Virus record (IMG/VR): IMGVR_UViG_3300025030_000164
Span: 1 to 47,847 of that record
Origin: a virus
Direction: 5' to 3' (one strand)
DNA: 47,847 nucleotides
Part shown: one piece after another, positions 7,753-47,847 of the stretch
How positions within the stretch are numbered: the first letter of the stretch is position 1
Layout of the letters: every line of letters starts with the position of its first letter
Made by a program: the position numbers and the translations under genes
The notes under the pieces: model-generated
Database searches by the model: none
Told to the model about the DNA's origin: nothing
The model's input: only the letters and a program-made list of their open reading frames with translations

Positions 7753-7976
7753 TTCCCCCTCCTTTCGGCCATAGCGCGGCGGATCATGGCCTCGCTGTTT
7801 TCCGACAAGATGGTATGACCGCGCATTAACCGGCTGATTGTCGGCTCTGTCAACCCCACAGCGGCGGCGAACCGACGCTGCGAGACCAACCCGCTGACTT
7901 TTCTTAGACAGCCGAGTTCAAGAGCAGCCTCTTTGATGAACCGCCGCTGTGCGTGTAACTGTTGTAACTTAATCAA
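7749..7976 (-). CDS. Cro/CI-like (XRE) HTH regulator
   Basis: 75 aa from TTG 7976 with AGGA seven bases upstream; a longer GTG reading to 8039 would translate the leader hairpin and is rejected. Residues about 30-70 form an XRE-type HTH: VSQRRFAAAVGLTEPTISRLMRGHTILSENSEAMIRRAM, split as helix 2 (RRFAAAVG), turn (LTEP), recognition helix (TISRLMRG) and helix 4. It is the first gene behind promoter 8068-8096, so it may repress the early promoters, including its own. No integrase is seen, so a lysogeny role is not shown. Confidence 0.85.
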   Translation of the reverse strand: MIKLQQLHAQRRFIKEAALELGCLRKVSGLVSQRRFAAAVGLTEPTISRLMRGHTILSENSEAMIRRAMAERRGK

Positions 7977-7995
7977 TTTTGTTCCTGTAAAAATG

Positions 7996-8062
7996 TTGAC
8001 GGGGCGGGGCGGGGAGTTGAACCCCTGCCGCGCGCGCACCTAACCGCAGGCCGCCCCGTCAA
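7996..8062 (-). promoter_or_regulatory. structured leader with T-arm-like hairpin upstream of XRE gene
   Basis: A perfect 12-bp helix joins TTGACGGGGCGG (8062-8051) to CCGCCCCGTCAA (8007-7996). Inside it lies GGGG-TTCAACT-CCCC (8025-8011), whose 7-nt loop fits the tRNA T-loop consensus TTCRANY closed by G-C. There is no room for an anticodon arm, so this is not a complete tRNA. The helix begins at about the predicted +1 of the promoter at 8068-8096. Confidence 0.6.
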
Positions 8063-8680: not shown

Positions 8681-8709
8681 TTGACTTTGGGCGGTTACTT
8701 ACGTATATT
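8681..8709 (+). promoter_or_regulatory. sigma-70 promoter of small plus-strand RNA
   Basis: TTGACT (8681-8686), 17 bp, TATATT (8704-8709), pointing against the surrounding early genes. The 9-bp inverted repeat TTTGGGCGG (8686-8694) / CCGCCCAAA (8752-8760) flanks the -10 and start site and touches the -35, so it may be an operator. Start of transcription expected near 8714-8717. Confidence 0.8.
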
Positions 8710-8713
8710 CTCA

Positions 8714-8815
8714 CGGAGTGATGATACGAGCATCACCAACATACGCTTTCGCCGCCCAAACTTGGGTAAAGATTAGCCTGTTGAAGCTCGTATCTTCGGC
8801 AGGCTTTTCTTTTTG
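8714..8815 (+). ncRNA. small RNA with two kissing hairpin loops
   Basis: Bounded by the promoter at 8681 and the terminator at 8775-8815; it has no convincing reading frame. Hairpin 1 is GTGATG-(ATACGAG)-CATCAC (8718-8736). Hairpin 3, the terminator stem, is AGCCTGTTGAAG-(CTCGTAT)-CTTCGGCAGGCT (8775-8805). The two 7-nt loops are perfect reverse complements, so they can form a 7-bp loop-loop helix within one molecule or between two. A weak middle hairpin CCCA/TGGG lies at 8755-8766. Complementary 7-nt loops are the arrangement used by ColE1 RNAI/RNAII. Function unknown; not a family I recognise. Confidence 0.75.
8775..8815 (+). terminator. intrinsic terminator of the small RNA
   Basis: A 12-bp stem (two G-U pairs) with a 7-nt loop is followed at once by TTTTCTTTTT. 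This is the clearest factor-independent terminator in the window. Confidence 0.85.
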
Positions 8816-9555: not shown

Positions 9556-9750
9556 TTAGTTTAGGTTTGCCTTTGCCATGCGCCCGGCAGTCGTCGCTTT
9601 GTCAAGCTGGATTTGCGCGTCGGCTGGCAGTTTGACGCGGAACTTCACTCTGGCGCCGTTCGCGTCTGATACCAATTCCATAAGCGCGCCAATCTGATTC
9701 GCCTTCGTCAAGCGCATGAGGCGGGGAATGTCAGAACCGAGCGGCCTCAT
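9556..9750 (-). CDS. hypothetical protein
   Basis: 64 aa. Helical start (DIPRLMRLTKANQIGALMELV), a beta-hairpin (ARVKFRVKLPAD), then a helix. ATGA-coupled to the 57-aa gene upstream. No family recognised. Confidence 0.75.
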   Translation of the reverse strand: MRPLGSDIPRLMRLTKANQIGALMELVSDANGARVKFRVKLPADAQIQLDKATTAGRMAKANLN

Positions 9751-10100: not shown

Positions 10101-10442
10101 TTAGAGCGAGTAAGCGCTTCTCACTTCGGCGGGAACAGGCTTGCCAGCGCGGATAGCGGCCTCAACCGCAGATTTGTGTTCATCAACCGTCACCCCTTCG
10201 CGTCCGGTTTCGGTAAGCTCTTCCCACTCAGAGGCGGGAGTTCTATCACGATTGCGGGATTGGTAAACTGTCCGCCCGTCGAGTTTGGCGGTGTTTATCA
10301 ACACCGAGTGTTGCTTGATAATGTTCTTTAACCGCCGCACCTCATCCGGGGTCAAATTACGATGGATATACTCATTCCATGCCGATTGCGTCATCCGCCA
10401 TGAGTCTGCCTTGCAGACGCTGGTTTCCGTGCCATTCACCAT
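10101..10442 (-). CDS. hypothetical protein
   Basis: 113 aa. Basic and polar, helical centre (LTPDEVRRLKNIIKQHSVLINTAKLD), then an acidic helix (ASEWEELTETGREG). The ribosome site sits in the conserved element AATTGAAGGGAGTT shared with the leaders at 11868 and 12500. The gene lies behind an HNH endonuclease that may have inserted between it and its promoter at 11094. No family recognised. Confidence 0.8.
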   Translation of the reverse strand: MVNGTETSVCKADSWRMTQSAWNEYIHRNLTPDEVRRLKNIIKQHSVLINTAKLDGRTVYQSRNRDRTPASEWEELTETGREGVTVDEHKSAVEAAIRAGKPVPAEVRSAYSL

Positions 10443-10554
10443 TATCGAACTCCCTTCAATTTCACTTGCCCCTTTATGCGTGGAAGCATACGCTTGCGAC
10501 GTTGATAGGAGTCGAACCTATCCAGGCCGGTAACGCCGTTGCCGCGGAAGGGAA
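10443..10554 (-). promoter_or_regulatory. leader with T-arm-like mini-helix and masked ribosome site
   Basis: In the leftward RNA, GGCGTT pairs with AACGTC (one G-U pair) around a 10-nt linker and ATAGG-TTCGACT-CCTAT, a 5-bp stem with a loop that fits the tRNA T-loop consensus TTCRANY. This looks like a tRNA acceptor/T-arm half without D or anticodon arms. TCCCTTC (10553-10547), overlapping the HNH stop region, is complementary over 7 bases to the ribosome site GAAGGGA (10457-10451), so initiation could be blocked. A further hairpin TATGC/GCATA lies between. Confidence 0.5.
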
Positions 10555-11004: not shown

Positions 11005-11089
11005 AACGCACCCTATCCACGTCTCGGCTAAGATTTGTGAACAGGGCGCGTTTTGCCCTTACGGGCAAGTTCTGTCTTTAGCCGAGACG
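11005..11089 (-). promoter_or_regulatory. pseudoknot leader RNA
   Basis: Helix A: CGTCTCGGCTAA (11089-11078) with TTAGCCGAGACG (11031-11020), 12 bp perfect, plus GA/TC past a bulge. Inside it are a perfect hairpin TTGCCC-GTAA-GGGCAA (11068-11053) with a GNRA tetraloop and then AACGCGCCC (11052-11044). That segment pairs with GGGTGCGTT (11013-11005) beyond helix A: 9 bp with one G-U. The crossed order makes a pseudoknot that includes an internal hairpin. Helix A begins at about +1 of the promoter at 11094-11122 and the second helix ends 15 bases before the HNH start. Confidence 0.7.
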
Positions 11090-11093
11090 ATAG

Positions 11094-11122
11094 AATATAA
11101 GTGTTCAAAGAGCAAGAGTCAA
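11094..11122 (-). promoter_or_regulatory. sigma-70 promoter
   Basis: TTGACT (11122-11117), 17 bp, TATATT (11099-11094) on the minus strand. The transcript would begin at the first base pair of the pseudoknot leader. Confidence 0.8.
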
Positions 11123-11871: not shown

Positions 11872-11967
11872 CAAACTCCCTTCAAATTGCCCTCTTTAAT
11901 CGGCGGGGCGTTGCCCGTGGGAAGGCTTTGGACTCCCCTTGTGGTTTAACGGGGCCGACGCCCCGCC
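11872..11967 (-). promoter_or_regulatory. GC-rich leader hairpin, possible pseudoknot over ribosome site
   Basis: GGCGGGGCGT (11967-11958) pairs with ACGCCCCGCC (11911-11902), 10 bp perfect. The loop contains CAAAGCCTTC (11930-11921), able to pair with the ribosome-site segment GAAGGGAGTTTG (11883-11872) as 5 plus 4 bp with an unpaired step. The order is again crossed, but the second helix is weaker than in the other leaders. Confidence 0.5.
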
Positions 11968-11984
11968 CCGCCCCTCACCTCACT

Positions 11985-12529: not shown

Positions 12530-12635
12530 GAAACGCCGAACCACTCAAACCTTTGTAACCAACAGCGTGAGCAGTTGAAGGTCGAACGATCCGGCGTTTC
12601 CAGACAATAAAAATGCCCGCGCTGTCGTTGGTTAC
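12530..12635 (-). promoter_or_regulatory. pseudoknot leader of first early gene
   Basis: Helix A: GTAACCAA-cga-CAGCG (12635-12620) with CGCTG-TTGGTTAC (12567-12555), 13 bp with a 3-nt bulge. In its loop GAAACGCC (12600-12593) pairs over 8 perfect bp with GGCGTTTC (12537-12530) downstream of helix A. Crossed order again; the second helix ends just before AATTTGAAGGGAGTT, the ribosome-site element. A TATATA lies at 12645-12640, so helix A starts at about +1. Confidence 0.65.
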
Positions 12636-43213: not shown

Positions 43214-43440
43214 CACTTCTCCTTCTTTGGTTTGAAAGTATTCACCGGCTCCCGCTTTGGCAGCATTCCCCGCCGGGCCGCGAGACCGAGTTGGTTGTAG
43301 GCCACGCGCAGTTCGGCTGTGTTCAGGACGATCATGTGTGAGCCGCCGTCGGCGTGATACTGCGTCAACTGGACAATCGTCTTGGCCTCATTGACAGCGA
43401 TTTCGCAGTTGGTTTGGGTTCTAAAAGCCTGCATCGTCAT
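43213..43440 (-). CDS. hypothetical protein
   Basis: 75 aa from ATG 43440 (or 43434), overlapping the helicase gene end by 20 bases. NCEIAVNEAKTIVQLTQYHADGGSHMIVLNTAELRVAYNQL split: beta then helix; basic tail (KPKKEK). No family recognised. Confidence 0.75.
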   Translation of the reverse strand: MTMQAFRTQTNCEIAVNEAKTIVQLTQYHADGGSHMIVLNTAELRVAYNQLGLAARRGMLPKREPVNTFKPKKEK

Positions 43441-44785
43441 TCTCTTTATCCTTTGATTTTGATTGTGCTGGCACGTTTCGTTCAAGCTCTAAAATACGTC
43501 CAGTAACAAGGTCATAGTGGCAATCAAACCGCCCCAAGCCACTGCCGCGCCCCTTGCGGTGCATGATTTCAAGCACATCTTCCTTCACGTCTGGCTGTTG
43601 ATATTTAGCCCGGTAGAGCAGGTCAACGCTATCCGGCTGCGCCCCTTTCATTCCAAATCGGAGCTTGTTTAATGTCGGCCTCTTGGGCTTCTCTTGGCCG
43701 GTGGTGTCATCTTGATTTAGGTGTTGAAGGACGGTCAGGTGAATCTTGTAGTCGCGAGGAATGTCCCGCAGCACCTTAACCGCCTCTTCAAACGAGGCGG
43801 ACGCTTCGCGTTGGGCGCGTCGCTTCAACTCTGTCAGGTTGTCAACATAAACCACCTGAACCCCAAACCGCTTAACCCACCTGTCAACCATTGCCCGAAT
43901 ATCGTATGGTGATGGAGAACTAACAAACTCAAGGTGAAGACGGCGGGGAAGGCGACCTTGCGCAACTAATAACTTTTGAAACTCATCGCCATCAACCCGT
44001 CCCGCCCGCATAGCCAGAGAGTCAACCTCGGCCAAGTTTCCAAGTATCCGCATTCCAAGTTTTGTCTCATCCATTTCGGCGGAGACAATGCCAACAGCAT
44101 AACTCCGGCTGATATTCAGAGCCTCATTTATCATATAATCGGACTTTCCGACACTTGGATCGGAACCCACAACCCGAAAGTCACCAAGCCCAAGTCCGCC
44201 TGTTACATGGTCATAACGGGGAAAGCCGGTTGGGATAAGTGTCAACTTTGTGCCGTCCATTGCCGCCGCCACCTCTTGAATAATCAAGGGCAACAACTCA
44301 ATCATTGTTGTTTCCCGCCCCGTCGCCAGCATATCCTGAACTTTCGACAACTGATCTGACAGGAAGATTTGAAGCTCCTGCGCCTTAGCCCCCGTGTTAG
44401 ACGCCTCTTCGACAATCTGCTTGGCTGCGAAAAATAAGCTGCGCGAGGCCGCGTATGCAATTACCCGCACGGCATAGGTGTCTGCGCCAGTGAATACGTT
44501 GAGTGAATTTAAGCCCAAGAGATAACTTGTTCCCCCCGCCACCTCAGACTTCCCCATCGCCTTCAACTCATCATCAACACTCAACACATTAACTTCTTGC
44601 CCCTTTAGATACACAGATTGACAAGCCTTGAATATGTGAGAGTGGCGGTTGTCATAAAACATTAGAGGCTGAACGCGATTCACTTGTGGCATGGCGTGTT
44701 TTGATGACAAACAACAGCAGAGCAGTGCAGTTTCAAGCTCATAGTTGAACGGCGGCATTTCGACGTAGTTGTTAGTTCCAGCCAT
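43421..44785 (-). CDS. dnaB: replicative DnaB-like helicase
   Basis: 454 aa from ATG 44785 with GGGAG five bases upstream. N-terminal DnaB helical domain (ELETALLCCCLSS...), then the RecA-like motor: Walker A GSDPSVGKS at about 207-215, GIVSAEMDETKLGMRILG (the SLEM-type block), Walker B VVYVDNL and LTVLQHLNQ sensor. Unwinds DNA at the phage fork, loaded by the product of the adjacent gene, while the host polymerase does synthesis. A cysteine run near the N-terminus (LLCCCL) is unusual. Confidence 0.92.
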   Translation of the reverse strand: MAGTNNYVEMPPFNYELETALLCCCLSSKHAMPQVNRVQPLMFYDNRHSHIFKACQSVYLKGQEVNVLSVDDELKAMGKSEVAGGTSYLLGLNSLNVFTGADTYAVRVIAYAASRSLFFAAKQIVEEASNTGAKAQELQIFLSDQLSKVQDMLATGRETTMIELLPLIIQEVAAAMDGTKLTLIPTGFPRYDHVTGGLGLGDFRVVGSDPSVGKSDYMINEALNISRSYAVGIVSAEMDETKLGMRILGNLAEVDSLAMRAGRVDGDEFQKLLVAQGRLPRRLHLEFVSSPSPYDIRAMVDRWVKRFGVQVVYVDNLTELKRRAQREASASFEEAVKVLRDIPRDYKIHLTVLQHLNQDDTTGQEKPKRPTLNKLRFGMKGAQPDSVDLLYRAKYQQPDVKEDVLEIMHRKGRGSGLGRFDCHYDLVTGRILELERNVPAQSKSKDKENDDAGF

Positions 44786-45572
44786 CATCACTCCCGCGCG
44801 GTTTTGGTTGCCCGTCATATCGCGTTTCCCACGTTACACAGGCTCGTTTCCAGTCCTTCATTGGATTCTTCCCCACCTTCCAGCCGTTCGACGCATAGAA
44901 CGCTACAAACGCCACCGGATCGAAGCGATACCCCTTGTCCTTGACATACGCCTTGACCTCTTCGGTGAAGGCGACAATCTCATCCTCTGTTTTTGGAGGT
45001 GTCCACACAACCTCCCGCTTGCGGGGGGGAGGGGGGAGAGATTGAGGATTAAAGGATTCAGGGTTTAGAGGCTTTAGTTCTTCTTTTGTGGGTCTCTTGC
45101 GTGTCCGATCCGTGTCAGCCTTATCCCCTAAACCGTCCCCAACTCCGTCCCAAAGCCCGTTCCCCCAATCTTGGTATTCTGTGTAGTTGACTACAAATAA
45201 CCGTGTCGTAACCGTTTCATTCTTAAGTCTGACTTGTCCCATACTTTCGAGCATTTTCAGGAAACGGTGTGTCTCCTTCCGTGTCAACCAGTGCCAGCGT
45301 TGAGTCCATGTTTCGAGGGAAAAGAGGGATTCCCCCCGATTGCAGATTAGGACGCGGCGACCGATAATCACCTGCTCAGGCTCATCCTTCCAGCGAACTG
45401 AAAAGAGAATATCAAGCCATGCCTCAAGCTCGGAAAACCGCCGCCTCTTTTTCCAAAGCGGGTGTTCGCGGATTGAGCGGAATAATTTCAGATAGCCCTC
45501 GCGGGCTTTGTCGGAGTTCATAGGGAGTCCCAATGTCATAGATGGTGAGGGACTGGCTGAAGGTTCACGCAT
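44772..45572 (-). CDS. replication initiator/helicase loader
   Basis: 266 aa from ATG 45572, which has GAAGGGGAG upstream; a second ATG at 45521 (MNSDKAREGY...) looks like the conserved start but has no ribosome site. N-terminal winged helix: GYLKLFRSIREHPLWKKRRRFSELEAWLDILF split, then WHWLTRKETHRFLKMLESMGQV. Middle is a charged, proline-rich linker. The C-terminus FVAFYASNGWKVGKNPMKDWKRACVTWE split is the DnaD/DnaT-like loader tail. It likely binds the origin and loads the DnaB-like helicase next door. Confidence 0.85.
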   Translation of the reverse strand: MREPSASPSPSMTLGLPMNSDKAREGYLKLFRSIREHPLWKKRRRFSELEAWLDILFSVRWKDEPEQVIIGRRVLICNRGESLFSLETWTQRWHWLTRKETHRFLKMLESMGQVRLKNETVTTRLFVVNYTEYQDWGNGLWDGVGDGLGDKADTDRTRKRPTKEELKPLNPESFNPQSLPPPPRKREVVWTPPKTEDEIVAFTEEVKAYVKDKGYRFDPVAFVAFYASNGWKVGKNPMKDWKRACVTWETRYDGQPKPRGSDDGWN

Positions 45573-45597
45573 TGGGACGCTCCCCTTCAGGCCAGTC
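45527..45597 (-). promoter_or_regulatory. pseudoknot masking the initiator's ribosome site and start codon
   Basis: Helix A: GACTGGC-c-TGAAGG (45597-45584) with CCTTCA-GCCAGTC (45563-45551), 13 bp with one bulged base. Helix B: GTCCCAATG (45578-45570) with CATTGGGAC (45535-45527), 9 bp perfect. The helices cross. GAAGG of the ribosome site lies in helix A and the ATG at 45572-45570 lies in helix B, so the fold would block the first start codon. Confidence 0.7.
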
Positions 45598-45628
45598 TTT
45601 CACGGATTCGATGTCCGAGTCACCAACC

Positions 45629-45657
45629 AACATACGACATTCCACTCCCCCTGTCAA
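45629..45657 (-). promoter_or_regulatory. sigma-70 promoter of replication genes
   Basis: TTGACA (45657-45652), 17 bp, TATGTT (45634-45629). Shares GTCGTAT(A/G)TT with the promoter at 549. Lies behind the methyltransferase stop and before the initiator gene. Confidence 0.75.
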
Positions 45658-45701
45658 GCCCTTTGTCATGGTTTCAGCCGGCGCGGTGAGATTCAGGGGG
45701 G

Positions 45702-46325
45702 TCATGGATTTGCCTCGGAAAATGCACGGGCGAATCCAGTCGGCGTGATTGAACGATATTCCTTCACCTTTGGGTCGCCCCACCGATGAGATTTACCCTC
45801 GAAACGCGGATAGTGAATGGGGTTCCATCCATCAGGCTTAGCGGGCGCGATTGGATACTTGCGCGGCGGCGTGAATCTCCCCCATAGTAATGTCTTCTTT
45901 GTATATGGATCGCCATAGTCGCAAGGGTGGAACCACATTACGGGTTCACCGAGTTCGATCTTTCGCAGCCTCCGTAACCTGCCAACGGGGTTTTCTATCA
46001 CCCACCAAAGGGGGTTGCAGTGTTGAATAATTGCCAAACAAGCATCAACTGTTGCGAGCGCATCAATCAATAGTTGCGGGTCTTTTCCAGCCCACCAGCG
46101 TCCACCGGAAACAGCAAATTCCGTGCATGGCGGCGCGGCCAATATCCCGTGAACCTTCATATCCCGATACCCCTGCCATGTGCGCACGTCGAACTCCGGC
46201 AACGTGATATTGTGAACCGTATAGCCCGCCTCAAGATAGGGGCGCGACCAGCTACCCGTCCCGCCGCAGAGGTCAAGAATGATTTTGTCGCTCGCGCATG
46301 GCTCGCTCGTCGCGGTGAGATTCAC
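45702..46325 (-). CDS. DNA cytosine-5 methyltransferase-like protein
   Basis: 207 aa from GTG 46325. Motif I LDLCGGTGSWS at 17-27, motif IV APPCTEF with catalytic C67, motif VI ENPVGRL at 111-117, and YTKKTLLWGRF near 150. Small for a C5 methyltransferase, lacking an obvious long target-recognition region, as in several phage enzymes. Probably methylates phage DNA against restriction; the target is unknown. Confidence 0.88.
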   Translation of the reverse strand: MNLTATSEPCASDKIILDLCGGTGSWSRPYLEAGYTVHNITLPEFDVRTWQGYRDMKVHGILAAPPCTEFAVSGGRWWAGKDPQLLIDALATVDACLAIIQHCNPLWWVIENPVGRLRRLRKIELGEPVMWFHPCDYGDPYTKKTLLWGRFTPPRKYPIAPAKPDGWNPIHYPRFEGKSHRWGDPKVKEYRSITPTGFARAFSEANP

Positions 46326-46341
46326 GCTTCGCCCTTGCCGG

Positions 46342-46698
46342 TCATTTGGCGTTCAAGTAGAGACGCCAGCGAACCGACTCCACCGTGTCGAAGTTGGCTA
46401 TGCGAACCAGCGAGTTTATTGCGGTGGAGTCTATGTTCATTTTCGCCCCAATGACGGAGTCTATGACGACAATCTCTACCTCCACTTCGCCGGTGACTGT
46501 GAATATCCTATGCTCTGGCTCTGTCCACATGACGTGAGCGCGCCCGAGGCCATGCTGCCACTCCGACAGCCGCCTCTCGTCGGAGCCGTCGGCGGGGACG
46601 GGATAGGTGGCTATGCCAATGATGAGGATAGTGGCTATTGTCATCACCAAAAGCAGCCTCAAAAAATCCACTTGTGTTTTGTTGAAAGCGGTCTTCAT
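46342..46698 (-). CDS. membrane-anchored hypothetical protein
   Basis: 118 aa from ATG 46698 with GGAG seven bases upstream. One N-terminal membrane helix (FLRLLLVMTIATILIIGIAT), then a beta-rich soluble part (RIFTVTGEVEVEIVVIDSVIG). No family recognised. Confidence 0.75.
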   Translation of the reverse strand: MKTAFNKTQVDFLRLLLVMTIATILIIGIATYPVPADGSDERRLSEWQHGLGRAHVMWTEPEHRIFTVTGEVEVEIVVIDSVIGAKMNIDSTAINSLVRIANFDTVESVRWRLYLNAK

Positions 46699-47658: not shown

Positions 47659-47847
47659 CCACCTTGATCTTGCTCTGCTTGGATCAAGCCAAGCGGGGTT
47701 CCGAACAACCGATCTAATTCAAGCGGTTGTATTAACTAGTTTCTGCGCAATCTGTGCTCTACTGCCGCGCAACAGGTGCTCAGGGGTAGAGTAACGGGTG
47801 CTCCGGCAGTAGCGCAACCCGTGCTCACCCTCGTTTCTTTTTCTCGT
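47659..47847. repeat. right copy of terminal direct repeat
   Basis: Matches 1-189 apart from one substitution at 47737. It carries the end of the HTH gene (complement of 167-189) without the rest of that gene, so the window simply runs past its own start here. Confidence 0.95.

Follow-up and report, generated by a model that had tools for sequence, protein, structure and literature searches.

A predicted pseudoknot between a short open reading frame and the replication initiator gene of an unclassified bacterial virus, and a second predicted one behind a sister promoter

Introduction

At which codon does the replication initiator of this bacterial virus begin, and what might an RNA structure predicted over its candidate ribosome sites do to its translation? 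Plasmids are known to control replication initiators by pseudoknots, repZ being one case (PMC8383071), and the T4-type gene 32 pseudoknot is regarded, in an excerpt of a 2010 review, as perhaps still the only viral one in translational autoregulation (PMC3014915). In the open-access literature we found no case of a phage initiator under pseudoknot control.

The DNA analysed here, referred to as the window, is an IMG/VR virus record of 47,847 bases from an unclassified bacterial virus. A first-pass annotation had described two helices that hide the ribosome site and the start codon of the initiator gene. The observation of the pairing stands, and the interpretation placed upon it survives in part: the pairing, the coverage of the site and the place where relatives start were borne out, whereas the start at Met1 and the joint shaping of leader and first codons were not. 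A 46-codon reading frame upstream of the initiator (uORF46), the promoter inside it and a twin promoter-pseudoknot module at 577-465 had all been overlooked.

Results

The two ends of the window carry a repeat (1-189 and 47659-47847) identical at 188 of 189 bases, and the portal gene is P22-like; the phage genome is thus probably circularly closed. The terminal repeat contains several copies of GTGCTC together with CTACTGCCG/CGGCAGTAG arms, an iteron-like make-up, and is a possible origin. Across the circular junction the minus-strand order is ORF 454-167, 47601 and on to the methyltransferase, uORF46, the initiator and the helicase (Table 1). ORF 454-167 seems to open the minus-strand operon, itself presumed, to which the initiator also belongs.

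The initiator protein matches PHROG 2514, the family of DnaD-like helicase loaders (E=6e-13, residues 25-135), and tblastn with this protein finds SPP1 gene 38 and similar phage genes. The DnaB-like helicase gene lies downstream and overlaps the end of the initiator gene, so that an N-terminal DnaD-like domain and an adjoining DnaB helicase gene are both present, as expected of a DnaD-like replisome organizer or helicase loader. Given the family match, the matches of the SPP1 gene 38 type and the downstream helicase, 'replication initiator' is a fair name by homology. Searches of viral_contigs, genome_contigs and phage records with the initiator, the helicase, the methyltransferase, a 167-aa protein, the terminase, the portal and the coat proteins found no close relatives.

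Table 1. Features of the initiator locus and of the sister module, in window coordinates
Feature	Coordinates	Strand	Remarks
uORF46, 46-codon ORF	45705-45565	-	Codon usage like that of the phage's genes
Sigma-70-like promoter TTGACA-17-TATGTT	45657-45629	-	Inside uORF46; consensus scan
Helix A, 5' strand	45597-45584	-	Predicted pairing, 13 pairs, one bulged C; in uORF46 codons
Helix B, 5' strand	45578-45570	-	Predicted pairing, 9 bp, perfect; ends with Met1 ATG, overlaps last uORF46 codons
Helix A, 3' strand	45563-45551	-	Predicted pairing; spacer downstream of uORF46 (codons 4-8 with a Met1 start)
Helix B, 3' strand	45535-45527	-	Predicted pairing; contains GGGA of Met18, 5 nt before ATG
Replication initiator / DnaD-like helicase loader, frame from Met1	44772-45572	-	PHROG 2514
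DnaB-like helicase gene	43421-44818	-	Pfam DnaB_C 2.5e-27, DnaB 2.2e-16
Sister promoter TTGACA-17-TATATT	577-549	-	30/45 positions identical to 45657 promoter
Second H-type pseudoknot	516-465	-	11 bp with bulge + 10 bp; loops 3/0/6; rank 2 compact in window
HTH_36 protein gene, 95 aa	167-454	-	Pfam HTH_36 5.5e-11

On the minus strand, at 45597-45527, helices A and B interlock in the order A5'-B5'-A3'-B3' and leave loops of 5, 6 and 15 nt; both the strand order and the loop lengths are those of an H-type pseudoknot. The predicted pairing is the one that the first-pass annotation had given, namely a helix A of 13 bp with one bulge that takes in GAAGG of the ribosome site and a perfect helix B of 9 bp that takes in the ATG. 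Its placing of the paired partners in early codons also holds, with a numbering about one too low (3-7 and 13-15 in place of 4-8 and 13-16). From the Met1 ribosome site GAAGGGGAG the 5' strand of helix A takes GAAGG and leaves GGAG in loop 1. The Met1 ATG itself (45572-45570) lies inside the 5' strand of helix B, the 3' partner of which falls within codons 13-16 of the Met1 frame. The second ATG, at codon 18 (Met18, 45521-45519), follows 5 nt past helix B, after the structure, as the annotation had said. Since the helices are interlocked, a single palindromic duplication cannot have made the structure, and this origin is ruled out. From the predicted pairing we infer that the mRNA forms the knot in cells.

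The ATG of uORF46 overlaps the stop codon of the upstream methyltransferase gene (ATGA), its TGA (45567-45565) overlaps the Met1 ATG, and the 5' strands of both helices lie within its last codons. Scored against a reference of 36 genes hand-picked from the list of open reading frames, uORF46 reaches 0.22 per codon; windows of similar length average 0.244 (sd 0.125) when in frame and -0.497 (sd 0.285) when out of frame. Of the stop-free windows in a wrong frame, 1,512 in all, 2.4% reach the score of uORF46; the share is 22.9% among the 3,933 stop-free windows of every frame, a set that includes real genes. A search with a 72-aa version of uORF46 found no homologue. The codons of uORF46 look real and coding-like.

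The first 17 codons of the initiator frame look different. Over codons 2-17 the score is -0.335, whereas the lowest value for the same codons of the 36 reference genes is -0.29; after Met18 the initiator frame scores +0.27. Relatives begin late as well. A two-motif filter over 121 loci passed seven ORFs, six of which have the N-terminal motif no more than 11 codons after the upstream stop; the seventh, L129, carries a chance motif and was set aside. All five annotated phage relatives start 1-4 residues before the conserved N-terminal motif. Thus, every distant relative with a readable N-terminus begins near Met18 (10/10 distinct loci, with L093 in both sets and L002 and L003 encoding the same protein), in agreement with the earlier view that homologues start near codon 18. 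The ribosome sites point the other way: in Shine-Dalgarno energy Met1 has -8.1, with ideal spacing, and Met18 a weak -3.9, its only Shine-Dalgarno-like bases being the GGGA in the 3' strand of helix B. The Met1 site GAAGGGGAG also resembles GAAGGGAG, found before three other starts of this phage.

On the codon scores and the starts of relatives, the initiator protein probably starts at Met18, which we consider about twice as likely as Met1. The matter is not settled, because a pairing constraint would itself distort codons 2-17 with either start and because the Shine-Dalgarno sequence of Met1 is much the better one. If Met18 is the start, the knotted stretch makes better sense as the end of uORF46 followed by a 43-nt spacer than as the leader and first codons of the initiator. 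The first-pass annotation had taken Met1 for the start, which neither the score of codons 2-17 nor the ten relatives support. Its further view, that leader and first codons had been shaped jointly, is not supported as it stood: both 5' strands belong to a separate coding-like frame, and codons 2-17 do not resemble coding sequence.

We propose, tentatively and with a little less than even confidence, that an intercistronic H-type pseudoknot keeps the initiator off unless ribosomes translate uORF46. While uORF46 is untranslated, helix A would form and helix B could lock over it. Helix B would then pair the only Shine-Dalgarno-like bases of Met18, and the two helices together would cover the ribosome site and ATG of Met1, leaving the initiator silent. 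Under nested folding the 30S footprint of Met1 costs 17.7 kcal/mol to open, the second costliest of 29 starts, and that of Met18 costs 8.9 kcal/mol, which is ordinary among them; Met18 would thus be hidden only if helix B forms. A ribosome reaching the uORF46 stop at 45565 would sit on both 5' strands, so that both helices would open and the initiator would become readable. Initiation might then occur at Met18, 43 nt on, by coupling through RNA unfolding or, alternatively, by reinitiation at Met1, which is possible because the uORF46 stop and the Met1 ATG overlap. Synthesis of the initiator would thereby be tied to translation of the methyltransferase and uORF46. In terms of sequence, the locus has what a coupled switch needs, an upstream ORF that is coding-like and the translation of which would open the structure; repression, coupling and the choice of start are read from it by inference. 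A programmed frameshift fusing uORF46 to the initiator was rejected from the sequence, as the knot would no longer be closed once a ribosome was translating uORF46.

It is unlikely, in our estimate, that the initiator starts at Met1 with a real, Ser/Pro-rich extension of 17 residues and that the knot serves as an operator of translation to which a protein (the initiator or another) or a ligand binds, in the manner of T4 gene 32 or E. coli rpsO. Such an operator would account for a good, ideally spaced Shine-Dalgarno sequence of the GAAGGGAG type, as before three other genes, and for the position of both the ATG and the ribosome site within the knot. However, the extension is absent in the relatives, all ten of which start near Met18, codons 2-17 look non-coding, and no ligand or protein is known. 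Rfam covariance models gave nothing above the gathering score at 45300-45900 and no match up to E=5 at 380-620; a known riboswitch, ribozyme or leader family was rejected on this ground.

The coupling model has to accommodate the promoter inside uORF46. A consensus scan of 44700-46400 on either strand found no other promoter-like site, and an antisense copy-control RNA was rejected because the plus strand offered no such site near the leader. A transcript from the 45657 promoter is predicted to start at about 45623 and lacks the start codon of uORF46. Such transcripts would stay off, or would need a further factor, and the coupling model does not easily accommodate a promoter from which the locked form alone is made. 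On these transcripts the knot may instead help initiation, by analogy with what is proposed for tisB.

The 45657 promoter has a sister at 577, and 0 of 2,000 shuffles were as similar as this pair. The pattern TTGAC-N18-TATNTT has five exact matches in the window, and seven, versus 1.9 expected, with one mismatch allowed. The sequence TGTCGTAT lies over the -10 box of both sister promoters and occurs five times in the window versus 0.8 expected. One inverted copy, at 454-461 on the plus strand, runs into the start of ORF 454, and another, the degenerate TATGACATT, overlaps the 3' strand of helix B at the end of the initiator knot; TGTCGTAT and its inverted copies are a possible shared operator.

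New in this analysis is the second-ranked knot of the window, which lies in the leader of the presumed operon's first gene, so that both knots come after sister promoters. It abuts the AGGA ribosome site of ORF 454-167, ending just before it, and its estimated energy of -26.8 versus -22.8 for the nested fold gives a clearer margin than that of the initiator knot. Indeed, the two strongest compact knots of the window each follow one sister promoter on the coding strand, an arrangement noticed after the fact; two knots as strong as both, positions ignored, occurred in 1 of 160 shuffled genomes. The transcribed leaders of the two promoters are not significantly alike in local alignment (1,398/2,000 shuffles as good) and marginally so in global alignment (80/2,000), and a common ancestry of the two knots was rejected for this reason.

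These findings allow a broader and more doubtful proposal, in which the replication operon would be run by paired modules: sister promoters, each with its own unrelated H-type pseudoknot, at the first gene and at the initiator, the knot of the latter being opened only by ribosomes translating uORF46. We think it quite improbable that both knots are instead 5' leader elements of the 45657 and 577 promoters, which stabilise the 5' end or recruit 30S/S1 and so promote expression. The position of the two strongest compact knots after sister promoters on the coding strand, and a 454 knot that ends before its ribosome site and does not hide it, would suit such a role, as would the tisB leader pseudoknot, which is required for binding of 30S and S1 according to the abstract of PMC7708055. 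Against it, the helices at the initiator cover both candidate ribosome sites and should hinder initiation, and local alignment finds no significant likeness between the leaders.

Initiators often bind DNA near their own gene, SPP1 gp38 being an example. The inverted repeats could accordingly act as DNA, serving the initiator or a repressor as operator or origin sites, with RNA pairing as a by-product; TGTCGTAT, common to both -10 boxes and with inverted copies near gene starts, would be in keeping with this. We regard it as very unlikely, as a distance of 33-34 bp between the arms is unusual for a dimer site, the helix sequences do not recur elsewhere more often than chance allows, and the TGTCGTAT motif is outside the helices, except for the degenerate downstream copy overlapping the 3' strand of helix B.

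How rare is the initiator knot? When loops are left unlimited, no other interlocked pair in the window matches its stacking energy. Among dinucleotide-shuffled versions of the 141-nt region, 0 of 3,000 and 2 of 60,000 gave as strong a knot, as compared with 6 of 60 shuffled genomes that contain one this strong anywhere. Under compact-loop rules, with generic loop limits set after the feature was seen, it ranks first among the 14 knots at or below -15 on both strands of the whole window, and 3 of 160 shuffled genomes contain one as strong. Folding energy alone gives no proof of it, because the knot (-29.3 in a rough Dirks-Pierce-like estimate) only ties with a nested hairpin (-28.9). Two other strong candidates of the first scan were dropped: 12635-12530, with a far better nested fold (-39.5 vs -16.3), and one at 9750, where the stretch examined holds no knot within the geometry limits.

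Gene starts as a class show no enrichment of pseudoknots (Mann-Whitney p = 0.81 over 68 hand-listed starts, of which eight entries are not start codons and two count the initiator knot), so a general feature of this phage was rejected. The sequences of helices A and B have no other occurrences beyond chance. We also rejected the presence of the same knot elsewhere, as exact helix B with a spacer of 20-45 nt returned eight stretches in viral_contigs, near chance by our own rough estimate. None of the ten distant relatives, all of lower G+C, has a comparable knot at the initiator start; the best scored -10.0 in one, and nine gave none that scored. That two unrelated inverted repeats merely happen to interlock at a gene junction is hardly credible: although a knot this strong turns up in 6 of 60 shuffled genomes, the whole window was open to the reader's search and there is no covariation evidence, the local figure is 2 in 60,000, the knot sits on a gene junction, the rank-2 knot lies in the leader of the sister promoter, and two as strong arise in 1 of 160 shuffled genomes.

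Several other RNA and gene-start features were seen in the window. A Type-P5 twister ribozyme (Rfam RF02684, 44.1 bits versus a gathering score of 37.6) lies at 11921-11979 on the minus strand, between ORF 12500-11985 and ORF 11868-11509. At 7990-8060 minus, after a promoter at 8096-8068, there is a strongly paired RNA with a 12-bp closing helix, a short T run and a tRNA-T-arm-like hairpin, GGGGTTCAACTCCCC, before a TTG-start HTH gene at 7976; ARAGORN called no tRNA there. A second T-arm-like hairpin (GATAGG TTCGACT CCTATC, 10504-10522 minus) stands between an HNH gene and the gene at 10442. On the plus strand, at 8681-8815 and opposite in orientation to the surrounding genes, a promoter (TTGACT-N17-TATATT) is followed by about 100 nt in which helices interlock and a terminator-like stem (AGCCTG/CAGGCT) has a T-rich tail, a candidate small RNA. 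The arms GTCTCGGCTAA/TTAGCCGAGAC close the leader at 11020-11107 minus, which follows the promoter at 11122 and precedes an HNH endonuclease gene. The leader before ORF 12500 (12530-12635 minus) has two competing helices, one of 13 bp with a bulge and one of 9 bp, perfect, and is a candidate for alternative folds rather than a pseudoknot. The genes at 10457, 11883 and 12523 on the minus strand have a common ribosome-site context, TTGAAGGGAGTT, which suggests repeated gene-start modules.

Discussion

In the repZ system a leader ORF, repY, takes part. The repZ gene of plasmid ColIb-P9 has a pseudoknot at the start of a replication initiator gene, as described in PMC8383071, and is the known case nearest in logic to the phage locus and opposite in sign. 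The repZ knot, on which translation depends and which the antisense Inc RNA blocks, forms upstream of the ribosome site, whereas the predicted phage knot covers the ribosome sites. The antisense RNA has no counterpart here, the consensus scan of 44700-46400 having found no plus-strand promoter site.

For the proposed coupling, the closest parallels are two cases of translational coupling through RNA unfolding, E. coli rpmI-rplT and the coat-lysis pair of phage MS2; in both, as here, an upstream ORF overlaps or closely precedes a structured ribosome site and its translation frees that site. The spacing, 43 nt in the phage, compares with +52 nt for rpmI-rplT in the excerpt of PMC12548453. Unlike in these systems, the block here would be an interlocked pseudoknot with both 5' strands in the last codons of a tiny ORF, and the coupling is predicted.

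An H-type pseudoknot also stands in the leader of T4 gene 32, likewise a replication gene of a phage (excerpt of PMC3014915). The T4 knot, however, is found about 67 nt before the start and serves to nucleate binding of gp32, whereas the ribosome sites of the initiator lie inside the predicted knot and no binder is known. In E. coli rpsO (uS15) and the alpha operon (uS4), as passages of PMC10931766 have it, a pseudoknot embraces ribosome site and start codon, as at the initiator; there the 30S is trapped with a bound ribosomal protein, and here no such binder is known. We claim none of repZ, T4 gene 32, rpsO or the alpha operon as the family of the initiator knot.

This phage is unlike T4, and its genome also has a sister module; a second viral case here would point to knotted leaders as a means by which phages time replication. 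If the reading of the operon as paired modules is true, this virus would have an RNA-level gate on its replication, and the copy-control logic of plasmids would be found in a virus, with the pseudoknot acting as a lock instead of an activator.
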